Below are positions 17,519-29,522 of a stretch of 64,000 nucleotides of DNA, in pieces. Source of the DNA: Parvularculaceae bacterium (GTDB lineage Bacteria > Pseudomonadota > Alphaproteobacteria > Caulobacterales > Parvularculaceae). The notes beneath the pieces were generated by a model. The model had not been told where the DNA came from. It saw only the letters and a program-made list of their open reading frames with translations, and searched no databases. Made by a program: the position numbers and the translations under genes. Within the stretch, counting starts at the first letter, position 1; each line of letters starts with the position of its first letter. The stretch spans positions 35,024 to 99,023 of the forward strand of contig JACADZ010000076.1 of NCBI GenBank assembly GCA_013389105.1. Direction: 5' to 3'.

Positions 17519-18064
17519 ATGCTCGGCGTCGGCGATAAGCTTCCCGATTTTTCGGTGACGGGCGTCAAGCCCGGGTTCAACAAGCACGAGGAAGGCGGTC
17601 AGTCGGCGTTCGAACCCCTCACCCAGGCGAGCTTCCCGGGCAAGTGGAAGGTCATCTATTTCTATCCGAAGGATTTCACTTTCGTCTGCCCGACAGAGAT
17701 CGCCGAATTCGGCAGGCTCGCCAAAGAATTCGCCGATCGGGACGCGGTCGTTCTCGGCGGAAGCACCGATAACGAGTTCTGCAAACTCGCCTGGCGGCGC
17801 GACCATCCCGATCTGAAGAGCCATCCGGCCTGGCAGTTTGCCGACACCAATGGTTCTCTGGTCGACGGTCTTGGCGTGCGCGCGCCTCAAGGCGTCGCCT
17901 TCCGCGCGACCTTCATCGTTGACCCGCACAATGTTATCCAGCACGTGTCGGTGAACAGCCTCTCGGTCGGTCGCAATCCGGCCGAGATCCTCCGCATCCT
18001 TGACGCTCTGCAAACGGACGAACTCTGCCCCTGCAACCGTCCGGTCGGCGGCGATACGCTCTAA
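17519..18064 (+). CDS. ahpC: Peroxiredoxin (AhpC/Prx)
   Basis: YFYPKDFTFVCPTEIAEFG peroxidatic Cys; C-terminal ELCPCNRP. Confidence 0.93.
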   Translation: MLGVGDKLPDFSVTGVKPGFNKHEEGGQSAFEPLTQASFPGKWKVIYFYPKDFTFVCPTEIAEFGRLAKEFADRDAVVLGGSTDNEFCKLAWRRDHPDLKSHPAWQFADTNGSLVDGLGVRAPQGVAFRATFIVDPHNVIQHVSVNSLSVGRNPAEILRILDALQTDELCPCNRPVGGDTL

Positions 18065-18122
18065 TGCTATTGCAGGCCGCCGCGCGTTGACGCGTGGCGG
18101 CTTCATCAATCCCGAGAGCCCG

Positions 18123-20138
18123 ATGTCGATCGAGGAAAAACTGGCGCAGGCGCGGCGCGCCCGCGTGGATGGCGATTGGCGAAGCGCGGAGCTCTTGTGC
18201 AGGGAAGTACTTGACAAGAGCCCCGTGCACCCGGCTGCGACCGGGCTGCTTGGTCAGGTGCTTGCCGAACATGGGGACCTCGCCGCCGCGGCGCACTTCA
18301 TCAAGTTAGCGATCGGGCTTGCGCCGAATAGCGCCGACGTTCGTCTCAACGCAGCAGTATTCAACGAACGGCAGGGCGATCTCAAGGGCGCGCTCGACGA
18401 GTGCAAGCGCGCCTCAGAGCTTGACCCGACGAAGTTCGAGGTTTGGGCGACCTACGGGAACTATCTGGGCAAGGCGATGCTTTTCGAGCCGGCCGCAAAG
18501 GCCTTGAGGCACGCGGTTCGACTGAATCCAAATCATCCGGGTGCGGCTCTGCTGCTCGCCGGAGCCTGCTTTGAACTTGACGATTATGCCGGAGCCCATT
18601 CAGCGCTCGATCTTGCTGACAAGGTCGCGCCCGATCTGCCCCAGACTCTGAAGATGCGAACGCATATTGCGCGGCGCGCCGGCGACGATGAGACGCTTCT
18701 TGGATTCGCCGAGCGGTGGTTCGAGAAGGAGCCGAACAGCGACGAGGCGCGAATGGCGCTTGCATTTGCGCTGGCCCAGGCCGGTTACTATGCGCGGGCT
18801 GCAAAAACGTTTCAGCCGATCGCCGAACGCGAGCCTCTACGAGCCGACTACCTCGCCACCATGGGCCGCCATTATCTTGGCGCCAGGGATCTCGACCAGG
18901 CGCGTGCATGGTTCGAGCGCGCGCTGAGCGTTGAGCCTGAATTCGAGGAGGCCCATTACGGTCTTGCTCGCACCGCCACCTACTCCGGAGACCTGAAGGC
19001 CGCCGAAAGATTCTGCCGGCGCGCGATCAGCATAGATCGCGGACACATCGACTCGCTGGCCTTGCTGACCGAGGTCTGTGAAGGCCGAATCGGCGATGCC
19101 GAATTCGAAGCGCTGAAGGCCCTTTCCGCCAACCCGAATGTGCGCCTCGATGCGCGCGCGACCGCCGCCTACGCCCTTGGCGATGCAAGTCACAAGCGCA
19201 AGATGCGGGCGGAGGCCTTCGAGGCTTGGACCCAGGCGAACCGTCACAAAACCGCGATCCTCGCCGCGACGCCGCTGGGACCCTACGACCCGGCGCGCCA
19301 GGCGAGATTCACGCAGTTGCTCATGGACGTGTTCGCACTTGACCCGCTCGACACGGCGCATGAACCGCCGCGCGAGGGAGAGCCGACTCCGATCTTCATC
19401 GTCGGCATGCCGCGCTCGGGAACGACGCTCCTCGAAAACGCCCTGTCCGCCCACCCCCTGGTTGCAGGCGGCGGAGAACTGCCGGCGCTGCCCTACATCC
19501 TTGATCAGCTGATGGAGGCTTTCGCCGCGACCGGCGGCCGGGGACGGCGCATTGACGAGTCGACCAAGGCCGGATCAAGGGAAATGTATTTCCGGCAGGT
19601 GCGCGAGTTCCGGCTCGACGCCTTGCCCTTCCTGACCGACAAGCAGCCCACGAACTTTCTCTCCGTCGGACTCATCCGTATCCTGTTTCCGCAGGCGCGC
19701 ATCATTCACATCCGCCGCAATCCCCTGGATACCGGCTTTTCAATCTACAGGAAGAACTTTTCGAAACGCTGGCCTTTCGCCTTCGACCAGAGGTCAATCG
19801 CGCACTATTACGGACAGTACGCCCGCATCATGGATCACTGGCGGCGCAACTACCCGGCAGCCGTCGCCTTTGTTCAATACGAAAACCTGATCGCCGACTT
19901 TGAAGGCGAGATGCGGCGGCTCGTCGACTTCTGCGGGCTTCCCTGGGACGACATTTGCGTCAATTACCAGTTCGAAGAGCGCTCGGTGATCACGTTCAGC
20001 GCTGTGCAGGTCCGCAAGGGCGCTTCAAAGGATCATTCGGGCAGCGCCGAGCCATATCGCGACTTCCTGAAGCCGATGGCTGACGCGCTGATCGAAGCCG
20101 GTGTCGATCTCGAAACCGGCGACCTCGCCAAATCCTAG
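18123..20138 (+). CDS. TPR-repeat sulfotransferase family protein
   Basis: N-terminal TPRs; C-terminal PAPS-binding motif [23 protein letters not shown] and [20 protein letters not shown] (3'-PB-like). Confidence 0.9.
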
Positions 20139-20157
20139 CTTTCAAAGGAGGATTGTT

Positions 20158-20691
20158 ATGAGTCTCGACGCGTTGCGGGAATCCCTCCCCGATTACGCCA
20201 AGGATATTCGCCTCAATCTCGGAACGCTTGCTGCAGAATCCGTCCTGTCGGACCAGCAAAAGCATGGGACGTTTCTCGCTTCGGCCCTCGCGTCGCGCAA
20301 CGCAGGCGTCATTCGGGCGGTCGACGCCTGGGCTGGCGCGGCGCTGTCGCCTGAAGCGCGGAACGCCGCGAAAGCCGCCGCCGCGATCATGGCGATGAAC
20401 AACGTCTATTACCGAGCCACGCACCTTATGGCGGCCAAAGACTACGCGACCATGCCGGCGAAGCTGCGCATGAACGTGATTGGCGCGCCCGGCGTCGACA
20501 AGCTCGATTTCGAGCTATGGGCTCTCGCGGTCTCCGCCATCAACGGTTGCGGCATGTGCCTCGACGCGCATGAGAAGGTCGTCCGCAAGGGCGGTCTTTC
20601 CGCCGAACAGGTGCAGGCGGCCCTCAGGATCGCCGCCGCCGTTCACGCCGCGGCCGCCGTCTTGGATGGGGAGGAAGCCCTGGCCGCGTGA
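20158..20691 (+). CDS. ahpD: Alkyl hydroperoxide reductase AhpD
   Basis: [23 protein letters not shown] CxxC motif; strong RBS aaaggagg upstream of ATG 20158. Confidence 0.92.
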
Positions 20692-20694
20692 TCC

Positions 20695-22044
20695 TCAGGC
20701 CGTGCCCGCGAGCGCGTCTATCAGGGGGCCCAGGTGCTTCTCATAATTTCTCCAGCGTGCGACTGACGTCCGGCTGATTGGCTGGCGCGCCTGGTAGGCG
20801 CTTGAGGTCTGGATGTGGCGGGGCTTGGGCGCCCCGGTCGACGCCTCGGCCGGCGAGAGATCGAGCGCCGTCAGGACACGCTCGTACTCCGCCTCCGGAC
20901 GGTCAACGAATGCGTCATAGTCAACCGTGATGAGATCGCCGAGCAAGTCGCGCCAATGGGCCATGAGGTCGGCGTGAAGCCGGTAGTAGCGGCCTAGCGC
21001 GCGGAGATCGAACTTGTAGCTGTGCTCGGACCTAAGAAACTGAAAGTAGCAGGAGAGGCACGTATCGACCGGATCGCGCCGGCAATGAATGACGGCGGCC
21101 GCCGGCAGCATGAGACGGATCAGCCCTAGAAACTGGAAGTTCATGAGGTTCTTGTCGATGAGCCGCGCCGCCGTGACATGGCGTTTCTCGAACTTTTCGA
21201 CATATCGCCGCCCAAAGCCCTCAAACGCCTCCGCGGGAAGTTTAGGAGCCCAGTCCGGATATTGCACCTTGCCCGGATGATTGGCGCTGATAAGGCCGAC
21301 AATCCGCGTAATCTCGGGCCGCTCGCCCAGAGCAGCGACCCCGGGATGGCGCGCGAGTTGATCTTCGAGGAGCGAGGACCCGCAGCGCGGCATGCCGACG
21401 ATGAACACGGGCTTCGCGCTCGCGAACCCTGCCCGCTCGTGCTTATCTAGGAATTCGCGGTTGAAGACCGATTTTATTCGCCAGAATCGGGCCTCGCAGG
21501 CCGCGTCGTCGAACTTGACGCCGGCCAGCTCGTTGCCTTCGCGAAAGCAGGCGAATGCGTAATCGTACTCCCCGATATCGTCGTAGCACTTCCCGAGCGC
21601 AAAGGCGTAGATCGAGCGCGCTTGCCGGTCCGCGCCGGGACGCGCGCGCAGTTCTTCAAGGCGCGCGATGAGGCGGTCGCCCGGCTGCGCCCGTCGAATC
21701 CAGGTGAGGTTGAGAAACGCCGCCGGCATGTCCGGGTCAAGCGCCAGCGCCTCGTTTAGTTGCGCCTCCGCCTCGGAGAATTCGCCGGCGAGGATCAGCG
21801 CGTAGGCGAGGTTCACGCGCGACAGGGCGATTCGCGGATCAGCCGCCACGGCGGCGTGGAACGCAGCCCGGGCGTCGTCATGCTCCATCTCCTCGGCGCA
21901 GGCGGCGCCAAGGAGATTGTAAGACCACGGATTATGCGGGTCGGCTGCGACGGCGCGCCGTCCCATGTCAATCGCCTCGGCGAACCGGCCGGCCGCGTAG
22001 GCGGCGTTGCCGGCGGCGATCAGTTCGTCGGCCGGACTTGTCAT
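20695..22044 (-). CDS. TPR-repeat sulfotransferase family protein (second copy)
   Basis: TPRs plus KPVFIVGMPRCGSSLLEDQLARHPGV and AAVIHCRRDPVDTCLSCYFQFL. Confidence 0.9.
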   Translation of the reverse strand: MTSPADELIAAGNAAYAAGRFAEAIDMGRRAVAADPHNPWSYNLLGAACAEEMEHDDARAAFHAAVAADPRIALSRVNLAYALILAGEFSEAEAQLNEALALDPDMPAAFLNLTWIRRAQPGDRLIARLEELRARPGADRQARSIYAFALGKCYDDIGEYDYAFACFREGNELAGVKFDDAACEARFWRIKSVFNREFLDKHERAGFASAKPVFIVGMPRCGSSLLEDQLARHPGVAALGERPEITRIVGLISANHPGKVQYPDWAPKLPAEAFEGFGRRYVEKFEKRHVTAARLIDKNLMNFQFLGLIRLMLPAAAVIHCRRDPVDTCLSCYFQFLRSEHSYKFDLRALGRYYRLHADLMAHWRDLLGDLITVDYDAFVDRPEAEYERVLTALDLSPAEASTGAPKPRHIQTSSAYQARQPISRTSVARWRNYEKHLGPLIDALAGTA

Positions 22045-23027
22045 GCCGGCCGCCGCGCCGAGAGCCGCCAGGCTCCCTGGGCGTCGCCCGCTCGAAACTG
22101 AACAGGTTCAAAAGAGATGTCGACGAGTCCGGCGCCGGCAAGGCGGGTCGAGATCTCGTCCATGTCTTGCGGTGAGCGCGCCGCTTGCTGCATCGCTCTC
22201 AGGCGGGCGAGATAGGCCCTCAGCCTCTGTTCGATCTGCTGAAGCCAGCCGAGAGCATCCTCCGGCGCAAAGGCGAAGCGCCGCGCGGCCAACCGCTCCA
22301 TGTCGGCGGCGTAATTCGCAAGAATGGCGGCGCCCGGCGACGGCGGCGATGCGACGAGGCGAGATCGGGCGGCGGCGAGCGTTCGCTGGAAGGCGGCTTC
22401 GCGCTTTTTGTTGACGTAACCCGCAGGAGCGCCGTCATAGCTTGCAGCTAGAGTGTCTCGGAGCGCGCGGATGAGGCCCGCCTCCAGAGCGGCCGCCACG
22501 ACCTGTTCGCTGGCCCCGGATTCCAGCGCGATGGCGCCGCCGGCGACATGCACGACAGCCAGAAGCGGCGCTCCCGGCCGCAGCGCTGACGCCGCTTCGG
22601 AGAATGCGGCGGCTCCGGCATATTCGAGGCCGAACTGGCTGACGACAGCGGAGAAGCTGCCGGGCCGAAAAGGGAGGCGATTGGCGTCGGCAACGCAGCA
22701 GATGACGCGCGCGCCGAGCGTGCGCGCTGCGGTGAGAGCGGCGGGGGCGTAATCGACACAGGTGAAATTCGGACGTGAGGCGGCGGGCAAACTTTCGGCG
22801 CTTCGCGCGATCGGCGCGGCGCCGGACGCAATGTCGAGGACGAGGTCGTCGGGGCGGAGCGCCGCCGTTTCGAGAAAGGATTTCCAGATGGCGTCAAGCG
22901 ACGGCCGCGCCGCGAGCCCGCCCATGATCTCGCCGTCGTTCTGCGGATCGCTCCAGAGTTCCTGCCAATGGTCGGCGCGGCTTGAAATCGGTTGGCTCCC
23001 TAGCTGAAGGCGTCTGCTCTGCACCAC
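22041..23027 (-). CDS. Class I SAM-dependent methyltransferase
   Basis: DLVLDIASGAAPIARSAESLPAASRPNFTCVDYAP motif I/post-I; upstream extension to 23282 overlaps the YkgJ gene, so a GTG near 23027 is the likely start. Confidence 0.8.
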   Translation of the reverse strand: MVQSRRLQLGSQPISSRADHWQELWSDPQNDGEIMGGLAARPSLDAIWKSFLETAALRPDDLVLDIASGAAPIARSAESLPAASRPNFTCVDYAPAALTAARTLGARVICCVADANRLPFRPGSFSAVVSQFGLEYAGAAAFSEAASALRPGAPLLAVVHVAGGAIALESGASEQVVAAALEAGLIRALRDTLAASYDGAPAGYVNKKREAAFQRTLAAARSRLVASPPSPGAAILANYAADMERLAARRFAFAPEDALGWLQQIEQRLRAYLARLRAMQQAARSPQDMDEISTRLAGAGLVDISFEPVQFRAGDAQGAWRLSARRPA

Positions 23028-23037
23028 GCGCCAGCGA

Positions 23038-23796
23038 TCAGGCGATCGGCGCCGAGGCTCCCGGCGCCCGGGCGTTCGCGAAGATGTCGACGCCGGAAAG
23101 CCATTTTTCGAGGGGGTCGGGCGTCGACCAAACGGCGACCAGCGCGGCGTTGAGTTCGAGCCTGTACAAGGGACGCCCGTGCGCCGCGAGGCTGATCGCC
23201 AGGGCGCGCAGGAAAACCTCGGAATTCTGGAAAAGAAACGGACGCGCGCCAGCGAATCGCGGATCGGATGCCCGGACCGCAAATGCGTCCATACAGCCTT
23301 TGACGGAGGAGCTGAGGAGGCCGCGACACGCTAGCGGGCGGCCCGCATAGGCCGAGCAAGCGTTATCGGATTCACCGAGGAGCGGGCACGGCGGACCTCT
23401 GCGCCATCGTGCGTCGCCCGCCTCGCCTCGGGTGACGCGATCGACGTCGCTAACGCGGCGCTTCAGGTCGACGAGACTTTTCTCGTCCCGAGTGCGCGTC
23501 AAATGCTCGGCGAGGAAGAACACCTCCGGCGCAGTCACGACGATCAGCGCGCGACAGCAGAAGGCGCAGCCCTTCGAGCACGCGGGCGGCGCCATGCCGC
23601 CCGAGGGCGCGGGCAGGCGCACCTCCCCCATCGTATCGAACGCCTGATGATATCGCTGGAGCAGGCCGTATAGCGCCTCGCGCGTCACGCCAAGGCGCGC
23701 AAAATGGTCTTGCGCAAACCGCGCCTCGAAGGCCAGCGCGGCCGCCTTCTTTTCTTCAAGGGTCTGCAAGAGCGCCTCTTTGCCGTCTGGCCTCAT
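23038..23796 (-). CDS. YkgJ-family cysteine-cluster protein
   Basis: PPACSKGCAFCCRALIVVTAPEVFFLAEHL ... CPLLGESDNACSAYAGRPLACRGLLSSSVKGC. Confidence 0.88.
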   Translation of the reverse strand: MRPDGKEALLQTLEEKKAAALAFEARFAQDHFARLGVTREALYGLLQRYHQAFDTMGEVRLPAPSGGMAPPACSKGCAFCCRALIVVTAPEVFFLAEHLTRTRDEKSLVDLKRRVSDVDRVTRGEAGDARWRRGPPCPLLGESDNACSAYAGRPLACRGLLSSSVKGCMDAFAVRASDPRFAGARPFLFQNSEVFLRALAISLAAHGRPLYRLELNAALVAVWSTPDPLEKWLSGVDIFANARAPGASAPIA

Positions 23797-23861
23797 CTTG
23801 GATGAGCCCGCCGCGCCGCTCAACAGTCCGAGCGACCGGGCCGGAGCGCAGCTCAGGCTGG

Positions 23862-23896
23862 ACAAAAGAAAACGGCGGGCTTCAAGCCCGCCGTTT
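23862..23896 (-). terminator. Intrinsic terminator downstream of TonB-dependent receptor gene
   Basis: AAACGGCGGGCTT-c-AAGCCCGCCGTTT perfect 13-bp inverted repeat (23870-23896), followed on the minus strand by TTTTCTTTTG. Confidence 0.85.
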
Positions 23897-23921
23897 CCGT
23901 TCAGACTTTCGGCCGATCCGA

Positions 23922-26807
23922 TTAGAAGCGGAGCGAGGCGCCGAAGAAGAGCTGCCGGCCGAGGGTGTCGTAGGTGGCCGGGAAGGTGTTGGCCTGCTCA
24001 GAGACCGTCGATCCGAGGATCGGCGCGTCCTTGCCGGTGATGTTCTGCACGCCGACCGTCAGGTCGAGGTTTTCGTTCACCGAATAACGCATCGTCACGT
24101 CGAGATAATTGAACATGCCGATGTCGTCGGACAGATCGCTGATGCACGAAGTCGTCGAGCCGCAAGTGCCCACGACGTCGTAATCGAGACCGCCGATCAG
24201 GCGCCAGCGAACGCTGGTGGTCAGCGGGCCGTAATCCCAGCCAGCCGTCAGCGTGTGCTTGTAGGTGGGCGTCGGCTCGCCGCAGTCGCCGGAGTAGAGC
24301 CCGGTGCACTCGATGTAGCCGTCGATCGGGTCGTAGCCGTTCTTCAGGTAGTAGTTCCCGAAGTAGACGAAGTTCATCGAACCCAGGGAACCGATATCGA
24401 AGCCGTAATTGACCTGGGCTTCGATGCCCTTCGCCTGCAAGAAGGCGATGTTCGATGCGCCAAGGTTCATCAGGAACGGCGAAGCGATTTCGCCGGTGAG
24501 CGGGTTACGAACGACGAGCGCGCAGGCGCTGGCGACGTTGTTGATGTGGCAGCTGTCGAGAATAGTGCCGAGGCCGACCGTCGCGATCGCGTCGCGAACC
24601 TTGATGTTGTAGAAGTCGACGATCAGGGTCAGGTTGTCGACGAAGCTCGGCTCCCACACCATGCCGACCGTGAGCGTATTGGCGGTTTCTTCCGAAAGAT
24701 TCGGGTTGCCGCCGAACAGCGCTTCGATCTGGCCGTTCGATTGGAACGGCGTGCCAACGAGGCCCGGCGGAACGCCGGTGGCGACGCAGGTGGCGACGAT
24801 CGTGGCTGCCGAGAAGCCGCCGAAGCCGCCGCCCGAGCAGGGGTCCTTAGCGCCCGGGAAGCCGTTCGAGATCGCCGTGAACAGCTCGCCGATATTCGGG
24901 GCGCGAACCGCGTGCTGGTATTGGGCGCGGAAGCGCAGACCGTCAACCGGCTCCCAGCTGCCGCCCACCGCATAGGTGTGCGTGCTGCCGACATTCGCGA
25001 TCGAGTAGTCCGAATAGCGATACGCGCCGTTGATCGAGAAATCGCCAATACCGGTATTCTCGAAAATCGGAATGTCGGTTTCGAGGAAGGCTTCGTAGAC
25101 GTCGAAGCGACCGCCGGCCGCCGGCGCCTGGTTGAAGCCGAGCACGTCCGGTCCGAGCACCGAGTCGGGGATCGACTGCGCGAACTCCTCGCGGTATTCG
25201 ACACCAAGCGACACCGCGGGTGCCGATTCGGCCCAGGGCATCTTCATGCCTCCGAGCTCGCCCGTAAGAGTCGAAATGATCTGGGTCTGCTCGACAATGT
25301 CCGCGATCGCGCCCGTACGGCCAATCGTGGCCGCGTCGGCCGGCGACAGCGAACCCGGGCCGTCATAGATATTGGCGCCGGCTTGCAGAGCGGTTCGCAG
25401 CGCGCTGATCGAGACGTTGCCGCTCTGGAACGTATAGATCGACGACCGCCCGAACTGGGCGCCGGTATCCCACACCCAGTTATCATTCAGGTCGACCTTT
25501 ACGCCGCCGGAAATCTGGAAGGTGTTCGTGTCGCGAAGGCTATTGCGGGTGCCCAGTTCCTCGAACCGCTTGTTAAACGTGAAGCAGTAGGTTCCAAGGC
25601 CCGGAGCCGGGTTCGGCACAACGCCCGGAAGAGTGGCGCCGCCGCCCGTGCAGCCCGCCGTCGCGGCGTGGGCCTGCATGATGGCGCCAAGCGCCGGGTT
25701 CAGCGAATCGACGATCGACTTCGGCACCGCGACGAAGAAGCCGGCCGGGGTCGGCGCAAGCTGCTGGTCGACCACCGCGTTGGCGAACACGCCGCGGGCG
25801 TAAACTTCGATGTTATCGCTGACTTCATAGCTGGCGGCGCCGAAAATCGAATAACGCTCTTGCGGCAGCTGCAGGTAGTTGGTCGGCGCGTAGTTGTAGA
25901 GGTCGTTCGGGTTGCCGAAGCGCAGACCGCGAACCAGGTTCGGACCCGGCGCGAAGAGACCCGAGCAGGTATTGCCGGCGCAAAGCGGATCGATCGCCGT
26001 GCCGTTGCCGGTGCCGAAGTTCGAGCTGCCGTTGCCGCGGAAGCGCGTTCCCGGAATGGACGACGAACCGCCCGGAATGAAGCCGACCGAGGTCGAGCCC
26101 GCGCCCGGATCGAAGAAGGTGAATTCCGAGAAGGCGCGGTCGCCCTGGAACAGCGCCTTGCGGTTCGTGTAGGAGGCGCTGAACACCGCGTTGCCCTTCC
26201 CGTCGGCGAAGTTGCCGCCGAGCGTCAGCGCCGCGTTGAAGACGTTCGCGTCCCAGCCTGCGGCCGAAAGACGGTCCGATACGTCGAGTTGAACGCCTTC
26301 GAAGTCGTCCTTCAGGATGAAGTTCACGACGCCGGCGATGGCGTCCGAACCGTAAACGGCCGAGGCGCCGCCGGTCACGACTTCAACGCGGTCCACAAGC
26401 GAGGACGGAATGTTGTTCAGGTCGACCGGCCCGCCGGCACCCGAGCCGACGAAGCGCATGCCGTCGACAAGGACGAGCGTCCGGTTCGTGCCAAGGCCGC
26501 GGAGCGAAACGGTCGCGGTGCCGGTGCCCGGGTTGTTCGACGTCGAGTCGAAGGACGGGATGACCTGCGGCAGCGCGTCGAGATATTCTTCCGAGTTGAC
26601 CGTATTGGTAAGAACCAACTGTTCCGCGTCGACAGTGGCGACCGGGCTGGGAGCCGAAAGGTCCTGGCGCGCGATACGCGAACCGGTCACGACAATTTCG
26701 TCGTCGCCGCCTTCATCTTGAGCAAAAGCCGGCGCGGCCGCGACGGCGGCGACGCCGGTGAGCATGGTCGAGCTCAGGTACCGACCAAGCGCGATCTTCT
26801 TCGACAT
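23922..26807 (-). CDS. TonB-dependent receptor
   Basis: Signal peptide; IVVTGSRIARQDLSAPSPVATVDAEQL plug, RGLGTNRTLVLVDGMRF, VEVVTGGASAVYGSDAIAGVVNFILK; C-terminal ...RQLFFGASLRF. Confidence 0.96.
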   Translation of the reverse strand: MSKKIALGRYLSSTMLTGVAAVAAAPAFAQDEGGDDEIVVTGSRIARQDLSAPSPVATVDAEQLVLTNTVNSEEYLDALPQVIPSFDSTSNNPGTGTATVSLRGLGTNRTLVLVDGMRFVGSGAGGPVDLNNIPSSLVDRVEVVTGGASAVYGSDAIAGVVNFILKDDFEGVQLDVSDRLSAAGWDANVFNAALTLGGNFADGKGNAVFSASYTNRKALFQGDRAFSEFTFFDPGAGSTSVGFIPGGSSSIPGTRFRGNGSSNFGTGNGTAIDPLCAGNTCSGLFAPGPNLVRGLRFGNPNDLYNYAPTNYLQLPQERYSIFGAASYEVSDNIEVYARGVFANAVVDQQLAPTPAGFFVAVPKSIVDSLNPALGAIMQAHAATAGCTGGGATLPGVVPNPAPGLGTYCFTFNKRFEELGTRNSLRDTNTFQISGGVKVDLNDNWVWDTGAQFGRSSIYTFQSGNVSISALRTALQAGANIYDGPGSLSPADAATIGRTGAIADIVEQTQIISTLTGELGGMKMPWAESAPAVSLGVEYREEFAQSIPDSVLGPDVLGFNQAPAAGGRFDVYEAFLETDIPIFENTGIGDFSINGAYRYSDYSIANVGSTHTYAVGGSWEPVDGLRFRAQYQHAVRAPNIGELFTAISNGFPGAKDPCSGGGFGGFSAATIVATCVATGVPPGLVGTPFQSNGQIEALFGGNPNLSEETANTLTVGMVWEPSFVDNLTLIVDFYNIKVRDAIATVGLGTILDSCHINNVASACALVVRNPLTGEIASPFLMNLGASNIAFLQAKGIEAQVNYGFDIGSLGSMNFVYFGNYYLKNGYDPIDGYIECTGLYSGDCGEPTPTYKHTLTAGWDYGPLTTSVRWRLIGGLDYDVVGTCGSTTSCISDLSDDIGMFNYLDVTMRYSVNENLDLTVGVQNITGKDAPILGSTVSEQANTFPATYDTLGRQLFFGASLRF

Positions 26808-27048
26808 TAATTATCCCTCCGAAGGTTGTACCGGATGCCCGCCGCCCTACCCACTAGAGCGAGAATACTAGCTCCGCCCCCCGTCAAAAAGGGCCTTGCC
26901 ACGGCGCACCCGACGCCATCGTCGGACCCTATTGTCCGGAAAGTTCTCAGGTCAACAAAGAAGGCCGCGGGCCGACGGCTTCTGGGGAGCGCTGTGGCAA
27001 TATCACAACAACAGCGTTAAGGGCGCATTCAGCTTGGTGAATCGGGGG

Positions 27049-28863
27049 TTAAGAATGAGCGATTCTGGGCGCCAAGTCGAACGGCGCGGTCACCCGCGGC
27101 ATGGCCGCCGCGAACGGTTCGACCCCGTGCCACATGTAGGAGGGGAAGATGATGACCGACCCCTCTTCAGGCCTGATCCACCGCTCGGCCGGAAGGTTAA
27201 GGCCGGCCACGCCGGAGCCTCCAAGTCGCAGGAAACCGGCTTTTTTTCCCGTCATGATTTCAGTCGGAATTCGGACATAGTAGCTGGCGCTGATCCAGCC
27301 TTTGGGATGGAAGTGGTCCACATGCCCGCCGCCTGACTTGAGAATGACGGACCAGGCGCCGGCGCAATCAAGGTCTTGGCTTTTCGCCGCCAGGAATGGA
27401 TGGGCCGGATCGTCGGGAAGCTCGTCGACATAGCGGCGCGCGGTCGCCATCAGCGCTCCCTTGAGCGCCTGGATGACCGGGTGGGGCTCGTTCCACAACC
27501 TGCCGACGGACTGCGTGCCGCCGTAGAGCGTCTGCGAAATTGGTCGGGCGCTCTGGCCCTCGTGCAGCGGCAGCAGCGCCTCGAGAAGGGCGGCGTTGAA
27601 CTCATCGACGCTGTCGAACCCCGGCGGGGGCTCGATGAACATTTTGCGCGCGAATCGGTCGTAGTCGTACCAGCGTCGATACCCGGGGTCGCCGCTGGCC
27701 CGCATGGCCAAAGACTTCAGCGCGATGTGGCGCTGAAGATGCTCCCGCGGCGCGTCGTCCAAGAGCAGCCGCACCGCGTCGGCGGCCCGCCCGGCCGCCA
27801 GCAGGCACTCGGCATACTCGTGGCGGGCCTCGAAGTCGCCCGGCGCTTTTTCATGCGCGGCGCGGGCGAGTTCGGCGGCGGCGGCCCGATCTCCCTGCAC
27901 CCGCCGCACCCGGGCGAGTCTGGCATAGCCCCTCGAGTCCGTGGGAGATCGTTCCATCAGCGCGTCGGCGGCCTCTTCCGCCGCCGCGACGTCGCCGGTC
28001 ATGAGCGCGAGTCCGGCCTTGAGGTCTAATAATCCGGGGTCGGATGTTTTGGCGATGGCGCGATCGAGGGCGGCGAAATGGCGGTCCGTCGCGCCGGTCT
28101 CCCAGAGAAGATTCACGAGATCGCCATGCAGGGAAGTCGAGGTCGGATCGAGCCCCGCGCCCTTGAGATAGGCCTCCTCGGACTCCCGGAACCGGCCCAT
28201 CAGGCGCAAGCAGTTAGCACGCTGATGATGGGCGTCGACCGATCCGGGCGCCGCCGCGCAGGCGGCCACAAAATCATCGAGCGCCTCCGCTAACGCGCCG
28301 CGATCCCGCCTCAGTTTTCCGCGGTTGAGGCGGGATTGGACATGATGCGGCTGACGCATGATCGCGTCTGAAAAGGCCCCTTCGGCCTCTGCAGGCCTTC
28401 CCGCGGCGCTCAGCGCAACGCCGAGGTTGTTGAGAAGGCGAACATTTTCAGGTTCGATCGCGACCGCCTTCGCCGCGGCGTTTGCGGCGCCTTCGGCGTC
28501 GCCCTTTCGGCGCAGCGCGGTCGCGAGCCCCGACCAGCCGTTGGCGAAGCGCGGGTCGAACCCGAGCGCGCGTTCAAAGGCGCTGACCGCTTCCGACAGG
28601 CGGCCTGCGGCGGTCAGGGCGTTGCCCAGGTTGGCGAGCACCGCGGCCTTGTTTGGATGAATTCGCGCAGCGCGCTCGAAGGCGGATACGGACTCGTCGA
28701 ACCGCGAAAGACCGCCGAGCGCGAGAGCTTCGAGGTGCGCCGCTTCCGGGTGATCGGGCGCCCGTCGCGCGACGGCGCGCGCCGTCTCAAGCGCGACGTC
28801 GGGTCTCCCCGACTGGAGCGCGGCGGCCGCACGCTGCAGGTCCGCCAGAAAGGGATCGGCCAT
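27049..28863 (-). CDS. TPR-repeat putative 2OG-Fe(II) oxygenase
   Basis: N-terminal TPRs; C-terminal GHVDHFHPKGWISASYYVRIP ... GSVIIFPSYMWHGVEPF like PF13759-type oxygenases. Confidence 0.85.
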   Translation of the reverse strand: MADPFLADLQRAAAALQSGRPDVALETARAVARRAPDHPEAAHLEALALGGLSRFDESVSAFERAARIHPNKAAVLANLGNALTAAGRLSEAVSAFERALGFDPRFANGWSGLATALRRKGDAEGAANAAAKAVAIEPENVRLLNNLGVALSAAGRPAEAEGAFSDAIMRQPHHVQSRLNRGKLRRDRGALAEALDDFVAACAAAPGSVDAHHQRANCLRLMGRFRESEEAYLKGAGLDPTSTSLHGDLVNLLWETGATDRHFAALDRAIAKTSDPGLLDLKAGLALMTGDVAAAEEAADALMERSPTDSRGYARLARVRRVQGDRAAAAELARAAHEKAPGDFEARHEYAECLLAAGRAADAVRLLLDDAPREHLQRHIALKSLAMRASGDPGYRRWYDYDRFARKMFIEPPPGFDSVDEFNAALLEALLPLHEGQSARPISQTLYGGTQSVGRLWNEPHPVIQALKGALMATARRYVDELPDDPAHPFLAAKSQDLDCAGAWSVILKSGGGHVDHFHPKGWISASYYVRIPTEIMTGKKAGFLRLGGSGVAGLNLPAERWIRPEEGSVIIFPSYMWHGVEPFAAAMPRVTAPFDLAPRIAHS

Positions 28864-28949: not shown

Positions 28950-29522
28950 ATGAATCGAATTCTCCTATTGGGCGTTTTGGTCCTCGGCGCTTCCGCTCCC
29001 GCCTATGCGGCTTCTCCCATTGACGAAGCCATGGACCGCGCGATCGCCTGCAGGACCATCGCGGACAACGCCGAACGCCTCGCCTGCTTTGACGGCGCCG
29101 TCGCCGGCGTCGAGAACGCCAAGGCCCTTCGCGCCGCCGAGGCGCAGGAAAAGAAAGCCGCCAAGGAGAAGAAGAGAAAGGACGATTTTGGCCTCAAAGG
29201 GCGCGACGTGATCGTCATGGCCGATACCGAGGAGAACTTCGGCGGCGAGGCCGTGCCCGAGATTCGGGCCGCGCAGGAGGAGAAACGCCTGAAGGCGATC
29301 ACGGCGACCGCGACGACAGTCAAGGTCAACTCGCTGAAGCAGGCGACCCTCGTTCTCGACAATGGCCAGGTATGGAAGCAGCTTGAATCCGACAGCGTGA
29401 GCCTGCCGCGCAAGAGCGACGGCAAGAGCTACAGCGTCACGATCAAGCGCGCAGCCATGGGGAATTACATGGCGACCATCGACGAACTCAATCGCACGAT
29501 CCGCGTTACGCGCGTCAAGTGA
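28950..29522 (+). CDS. Secreted hypothetical protein
   Basis: Signal peptide MNRILLLGVLVLGASAPAYA; IACRTIADNAERLACFDGAVAGV (C-x-D-x-ARLACFD type) then charged region. Confidence 0.75.
   Translation: MNRILLLGVLVLGASAPAYAASPIDEAMDRAIACRTIADNAERLACFDGAVAGVENAKALRAAEAQEKKAAKEKKRKDDFGLKGRDVIVMADTEENFGGEAVPEIRAAQEEKRLKAITATATTVKVNSLKQATLVLDNGQVWKQLESDSVSLPRKSDGKSYSVTIKRAAMGNYMATIDELNRTIRVTRVK

Follow-up and report, generated by a model that had tools for sequence, protein, structure and literature searches.

What do the bacterial sulfotransferases and oxygenases that carry tetratricopeptide repeats (TPRs) modify? The question is raised by a 64,000-nucleotide stretch of Parvularculaceae bacterium DNA (assembly GCA_013389105.1, contig JACADZ010000076.1, positions 35,024 to 99,023 of the forward strand; hereafter the window), in which five consecutive minus-strand genes had been proposed, from the sequence alone, to form a multi-enzyme modification system (the original prediction). 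All five open reading frames (ORFs) are intact and lie where they had been placed, and Pfam confirms the domain names given to them, with catalytic motifs present. Four of these genes, encoding a TPR-oxygenase (OXY), a TonB-dependent receptor (TBDR), a methyltransferase (MT), and a TPR-sulfotransferase (SulfB), are a real conserved neighbourhood, a widespread module that ties a single TBDR subfamily to interchangeable TPR-armed oxygenases and TPR-sulfotransferases and to a methyltransferase. In the window they are arranged as follows:

27049-28863, minus strand: OXY, TPRs with a C-terminal PF13759 2-oxoglutarate (2OG)-Fe(II) oxygenase domain (Pfam, 3.4e-20)
23922-26807, minus strand: TBDR of subfamily 'c1' (Pfam Plug, 3.6e-23; TonB barrel, 3.5e-33)
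22041 to ~22988, minus strand: MT, a class I, S-adenosylmethionine-dependent methyltransferase (Methyltransf_25/11, PF13649/PF08241, 7e-10)
20695-22044, minus strand: SulfB, TPRs with a sulfotransferase dependent on 3'-phosphoadenosine 5'-phosphosulfate (PAPS) (Sulfotransfer_3, PF13469, 3.4e-34)

Conservation and limits of the neighbourhood

GTDB species genomes were scanned with an oxygenase alignment, and 80 OXY loci were chosen by oxygenase similarity alone from Alpha- and Gammaproteobacteria (Parvularculales, Maricaulales, Kordiimonadales, Emcibacterales, Caulobacterales, Alteromonadales, Lysobacterales, Cellvibrionales, Woeseiales, and others); their neighbouring genes were clustered together with those of the window. 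The families recurring across lineages were the TBDR (63 loci), the TPR-sulfotransferase (42), and the methyltransferase (34, the window counted), joined by TPR proteins bearing an aspartyl/asparaginyl hydroxylase domain (20) and 2OG oxygenases of the PF13661 type (16), while the other frequent neighbours were mostly housekeeping genes specific to a lineage. Among the 47 loci with full flanks (at least 6 kb on each side), the TBDR subfamily lay no more than 6 kb from OXY in 40, mostly within ~300 bp; the receptor and a TPR-sulfotransferase were found together in 26, and a methyltransferase in 23. Receptors made up 22% of the genes within 2 kb of OXY compared with 3 of 360 genes (~1%) at 6-10 kb. 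Several relatives from the same genus or family also hold OXY, the receptor, and MT or a sulfotransferase together, in two gene orders. Cultured carriers of the module include Maricaulis maris DSM 4734 (L109), Amphiplicatus metriothermophilus (L098), and Thalassotalea loyana (L121). The original prediction was to fall if homologues did not co-occur elsewhere; OXY, the receptor, MT, and the TPR-sulfotransferase do so in many alpha- and gammaproteobacterial orders.

The window receptor has both Plug and barrel domains and an N-terminal leader read by eye as AFA|QDE. A profile of module receptors scored 940-1030 bits when run on module receptors excluded from it. The window's genome has 17 Plug-domain matches, and its other receptors stayed at or below 76 bits, one (L185, 632 bits) excepted. 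Away from OXY, the subfamily receptor stands beside AspH-type hydroxylases or TPR-sulfotransferases, or divergent from genes for an extracytoplasmic function (ECF) sigma factor, FecR, and a second receptor. The last setting, in which the second TonB receptor is the larger, was seen at L194, where the set was checked by domains, and at L201, L205, L206, and L212, where it was assigned by size and order. Among 76 further receptors drawn regardless of enzymes, the genes of 31 lie no more than 6 kb from a gene for one or more of the four enzymes. At positions equivalent to window residues 773 and 459, Asp/Asn was commoner with an AspH-type gene nearby (residue 773: 17/21 vs 14/72); ancestry was uncontrolled in this comparison, and it was not used.

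Several features border the four genes or lie among them:

23868-23898, minus strand: terminator-like hairpin of 14 pairs, 3' of the receptor gene (sequence, T-rich tail)
23038-23796, minus strand: YkgJ/CxxCxxCC protein (PF03692, 1.1e-6, exceeding the family cut-off)
18123-20138, plus strand: SulfA, a second TPR-sulfotransferase, convergent (PF13469, 9.9e-45)
28950-29522, plus strand: SSP, a small secreted-looking protein, divergent from OXY (leader read by eye, conserved C-terminal domain)

Could the neighbours simply have travelled together within lineages, without a functional link? At the genus level the module lies beside oxyR-ahpC-ahpD, so gene order there is partly shared ancestry, but other orders keep the partners beside unrelated genes (e.g., a ribosomal-protein operon in Maricaulis), and receptor frequency falls steeply with distance from OXY. 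Such hitchhiking is largely excluded by the breadth of co-occurrence, and we consider it very improbable. Harder still to credit is a single unit of five genes in which YkgJ would have a part, such as that of a metal-dependent methylation factor resembling FliB. The five genes do share one strand, and the end of YkgJ is close to the MT start; however, the gap between the receptor and YkgJ genes holds the longest terminator-like hairpin of the region (23898-23868, minus strand), and this hairpin with its T-rich tail suggests that YkgJ, MT, and SulfB probably form a second transcription unit. The three genes adjoin the receptor gene as originally described but need not be transcribed together with it, and the overlap of the MT stop and SulfB start as ATGA (22044-22041) was read correctly. 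YkgJ itself had been counted as a component, yet no homologue was found in any other module locus fetched and only one weak match appeared among 40 relatives; against NCBIfam it found no family at E 0.01, leaving only the generic PF03692 Cys cluster, and the likeness to the flagellin methylase FliB is not supported. YkgJ is probably lineage-specific and not part of the module.

Other components had been overlooked in the initial list of parts: the 2OG partners, of AspH type and otherwise, the identity of the TBDR subfamily, and SulfA and SSP, which lie beyond the interval first considered and belong to the conserved neighbourhood of the relatives. The SulfA gene is located between ahpC and ahpD (17519-20691, plus strand), 3' of a divergent oxyR-like gene, and has the same location in relatives L059 and L062. 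The oxyR-ahpC-ahpD genes adjoin the module in other relatives too, but in a different gene order. SSP, a candidate associated component, combines its leader with a conserved C-terminal LDNGQVWxQ...VTRVK domain, and its family resembles VasI weakly. SSP profile matches occur in ~24 of the 80 OXY loci and in genus relatives, often adjoining OXY or the receptor. The family recurs near the module in both Alpha- and Gammaproteobacteria.

TPR-armed enzymes and the methyltransferase

OXY scores 72.8 bits on PF13759 (cut-off 27), with a catalytic part at approximately residues 376-604. It carries a conserved candidate set of His metal ligands together with a putative 2OG-binding Arg, H514, H517, H519, H579, and R590 being invariant in 67 OXY homologues. 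In its AlphaFold2 model (pLDDT 96.7, pTM 0.92) a long TPR superhelix is followed by the 2OG domain. A structure search with this model returned the TPRs of O-GlcNAc transferase (OGT) as best matches and the aspartyl/asparaginyl hydroxylase AspH among the significant ones. AspH likewise joins a TPR domain to a 2OG oxygenase domain, and AspH-family TPR proteins are recurrent partners in the module loci; its oxygenase domain is PF05118, whereas that of OXY is PF13759, and the whole-chain TM score is low (0.23-0.28, by query length). Compared with solved structures, the OXY catalytic domain has two significant relatives only, 2rg4 (2.1e-11) and 3bvc (5.4e-11), both uncharacterised PF13759-like proteins which, unlike OXY, comprise ~215 residues without a TPR part. 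One OXY homologue, at L043 (genome G038), has one in-frame TGA in the matched stretch, which may reflect gene decay or an error in sequencing.

The closest solved relative of the SulfB catalytic domain is the protein-tyrosine sulfotransferase (TPST). When the sulfotransferase-domain profile was run against PDB sequences, enzymes of this kind came first (2.8e-17 to 4e-14), followed by the polyketide sulfotransferase CurM (5e-9) and a relative (3e-8), and then by cytosolic sulfotransferases (8e-5 or weaker). TPST also ranks first among the catalytic-domain matches of the SulfB AlphaFold2 model (pLDDT 95.9; TM mostly 0.55-0.66, by target), while the TPRs of the model match those of OGT and SPINDLY. 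In both of the latter a long TPR superhelix feeds polypeptides to a transferase domain, a likeness that stops at the catalytic domain, which is not shared and performs glycosyl or fucosyl transfer. Across the SulfB family (41 proteins), R220, E241, K298, R323, W364, and S415 are invariant and S331 is conserved in >90%. An Arg, a Glu/His base, and a Ser are essential in RaxST and other sulfotransferases (PMC6637879), and SulfB R220, E241, and S331 are the counterparts of these residues in the 5'-phosphosulfate-binding (5'-PSB), catalytic, and 3'-phosphate-binding (3'-PB) positions, respectively. For PAPS supply, the window's genome has a gene for adenosine 5'-phosphosulfate (APS) kinase. Elsewhere, tandem triplets of SulfB-type TPR-sulfotransferases lie away from the module (L079 9844-13900 in G005; L080 7976-12121 in G017), and in the window's own genome another TPR-sulfotransferase is followed, 66 bp on, by a TonB receptor of a different subfamily (L086 8357-13012). 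Two apparent fusion proteins in relatives were rejected: an 873-aa MT-sulfotransferase frame in G004 translates an assembly gap as X, and a 918-aa frame in G005 is a spurious ORF extension 5' of the sulfotransferase.

MT has no good ATG. The N-terminal W-x(2-3)-W motif of its homologues is encoded ahead of the first in-frame ATG (22925); translation therefore probably begins at the rare codon ATT at 22986-22988, preceded by a good Shine-Dalgarno sequence (AGGGAG), or else at an upstream GTG.

Candidate substrates and the receptor residue Tyr306

As best explanation of the whole, held tentatively, we propose that an exported polypeptide, possibly the receptor itself, is modified by cytoplasmic TPR-guided enzymes. 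The TPR solenoids would bind this polypeptide in the cytoplasm ahead of Sec export; the attached domains would hydroxylate it and sulfate its tyrosine with PAPS, and the partner enzyme would methylate it. The polypeptide would most likely be encoded by the module, as either the receptor, where Tyr306 is the candidate site, or its secreted partner, and the marks may alter what the receptor binds at the surface, whether ligand, phage, or bacteriocin. Leader peptides, read by eye, are absent from the enzymes and present on the receptor and SSP, which means that modification would precede Sec export. A protein or peptide is the rather probable substrate class, judging from the likeness to TPST and the TPR architecture; the original prediction of a protein or peptide recognised through TPRs thereby gains indirect support, with TPST as closest solved relative and TPRs like those of OGT and AspH. 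That the receptor itself is the substrate, rather than a secreted partner or a peptide ligand, is considerably less likely. The fullest version, in which the TonB receptor is sulfated and hydroxylated (e.g., at Tyr306) by adjoining cytoplasmic enzymes that are swapped between lineages, with a change in surface specificity, we likewise regard as unlikely.

The residue and peptide in question are:

25890-25892, minus strand: codon of receptor Tyr306 (motif YN-Y-APTNYLQ), candidate sulfation or selectivity site
Receptor residues 297-318: tryptic peptide with Tyr306, FGNPNDLYNYAPTNYLQLPQER

In a discovery set of 93 subfamily receptors, each column-residue was tested for association with a sulfotransferase gene no more than 6 kb away. 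Residue 306, in the motif [YF]N-Y/F-APxN[YF]LQ, was Tyr in 40/47 receptors with a sulfotransferase and in 3/29 without one, where it was usually Phe. This was the best of 2341 tests (Fisher 6.5e-11), the next different column reaching 1.2e-6. The prediction for Tyr306 was written down before new loci were fetched, and in the new genomes Tyr306 was found in 8/11 receptors with a sulfotransferase vs 12/58 without (one-sided p 0.0014); in this replication set it ranked 2nd of 2877 tests for 'sulfotransferase or methyltransferase'. Its sequence context predicts residue 306 to sit where a barrel strand reaches its outer end.

Several points weigh against modification of the receptor, or of any exported polypeptide. 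A phylogenetic pair test of Tyr306 was not significant (~4.7 pairs agree, 1.4 disagree, 12 tied; median p 0.2-0.4), and with so few independent changes on the tree a link independent of ancestry is not established. In the replication set alone, Tyr306 came 39th of 2877 tests for sulfotransferase, and a methyltransferase gene predicts it at least as well as a sulfotransferase gene. Tyr306 was accordingly rejected as a proven sulfation site, with the pair test and the equal prediction by MT deciding, and kept as a lead, worth examining first but carrying no further weight. The subfamily receptor is also found without these enzymes, for instance where an ECF sigma factor and FecR are its neighbours. 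The sulfotransferase domain matches CurM fairly well too (5e-9), an enzyme that sulfates a polyketide chain, and this makes a non-protein substrate possible. Any residue modified in the cytoplasm has yet to get through Sec and BAM, and the modification itself is a prediction.

TBDRs usually import ligands, and the main rival explanation builds on this usual role: the enzymes would produce or tailor a small peptide or metabolite for import through the receptor, as methanobactin operons do. We consider this possible but doubtful. The CurM-type sulfotransferases of assembly-line products are related to the SulfB domain, and methanobactin operons (MbnT, MbnS) bring together a TonB transporter, other tailoring enzymes, and sometimes a PAPS-dependent sulfotransferase (PMC3621798). 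Against it, neither an exporter nor an assembly-line gene recurs among the neighbour clusters, and the comparison of 744 short ORFs revealed no short precursor ORF common to the module loci, which speaks against a peptide precursor; those that recur are flanking fragments and lineage-specific pieces, so the candidate precursor of a ribosomally synthesised and post-translationally modified peptide (RiPP) was rejected. A precursor conserved with the enzymes, which marks RiPPs of the methanobactin type, is thus not found in the module loci. MbnS, moreover, is described as PF00685, whereas PF13469 is the main match here, with TPRs attached, and the operon description in PMC3621798 has no 2OG-TPR enzymes.

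Alternatively, the enzymes might process an imported ligand after uptake, in catabolism or detoxification, with the receptor as the gate only. Receptor genes often adjoin those of enzymes acting on their ligand, and the present subfamily is found with varying enzyme sets; still, the module shows no recurring inner-membrane transporter or hydrolase, sulfation with PAPS is costly and unusual for catabolism, and TPRs fused to catalytic domains of several unrelated kinds point to a protein or peptide as substrate. Processing after uptake therefore appears improbable to us, more so than the making of an imported molecule.

Relation to known systems and significance

The raxX-raxSTAB system of Xanthomonas (PMC6637879) resembles the module in its PAPS-dependent sulfotransferase, which is related to human TPST and shares the essential Arg, Glu or His base, and Ser, and in that the substrate of RaxST is an exported polypeptide, as is proposed here. 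It differs in having the RaxX precursor and a type I exporter: no short precursor ORF was found in the module loci, and no RaxA/RaxB-type export pair was recognised among the neighbour clusters. The module in turn adds the TPR fusion, 2OG oxygenases, a methyltransferase, and a TBDR. The protein families are already known; no description of their combination was found in the literature searched, where most subscription journals fell outside coverage, and the module is apparently undescribed so far. The same searches found no tyrosine-sulfated outer-membrane protein and no function for TPR-sulfotransferases or TPR-PF13759 oxygenases.

Marine and soil Proteobacteria repeatedly carry TPR-sulfotransferases and TPR-PF13759 oxygenases. 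With both now placed in one module with a defined receptor subfamily, the question of what TPR-sulfotransferases modify can be put directly to a named peptide. Should the receptor prove to be the substrate, the sulfation of an outer-membrane receptor by enzymes would be categorically new, and enzymatic post-translational editing would join the ways in which bacteria vary the surface receptors used by phages, bacteriocins, and nutrients.

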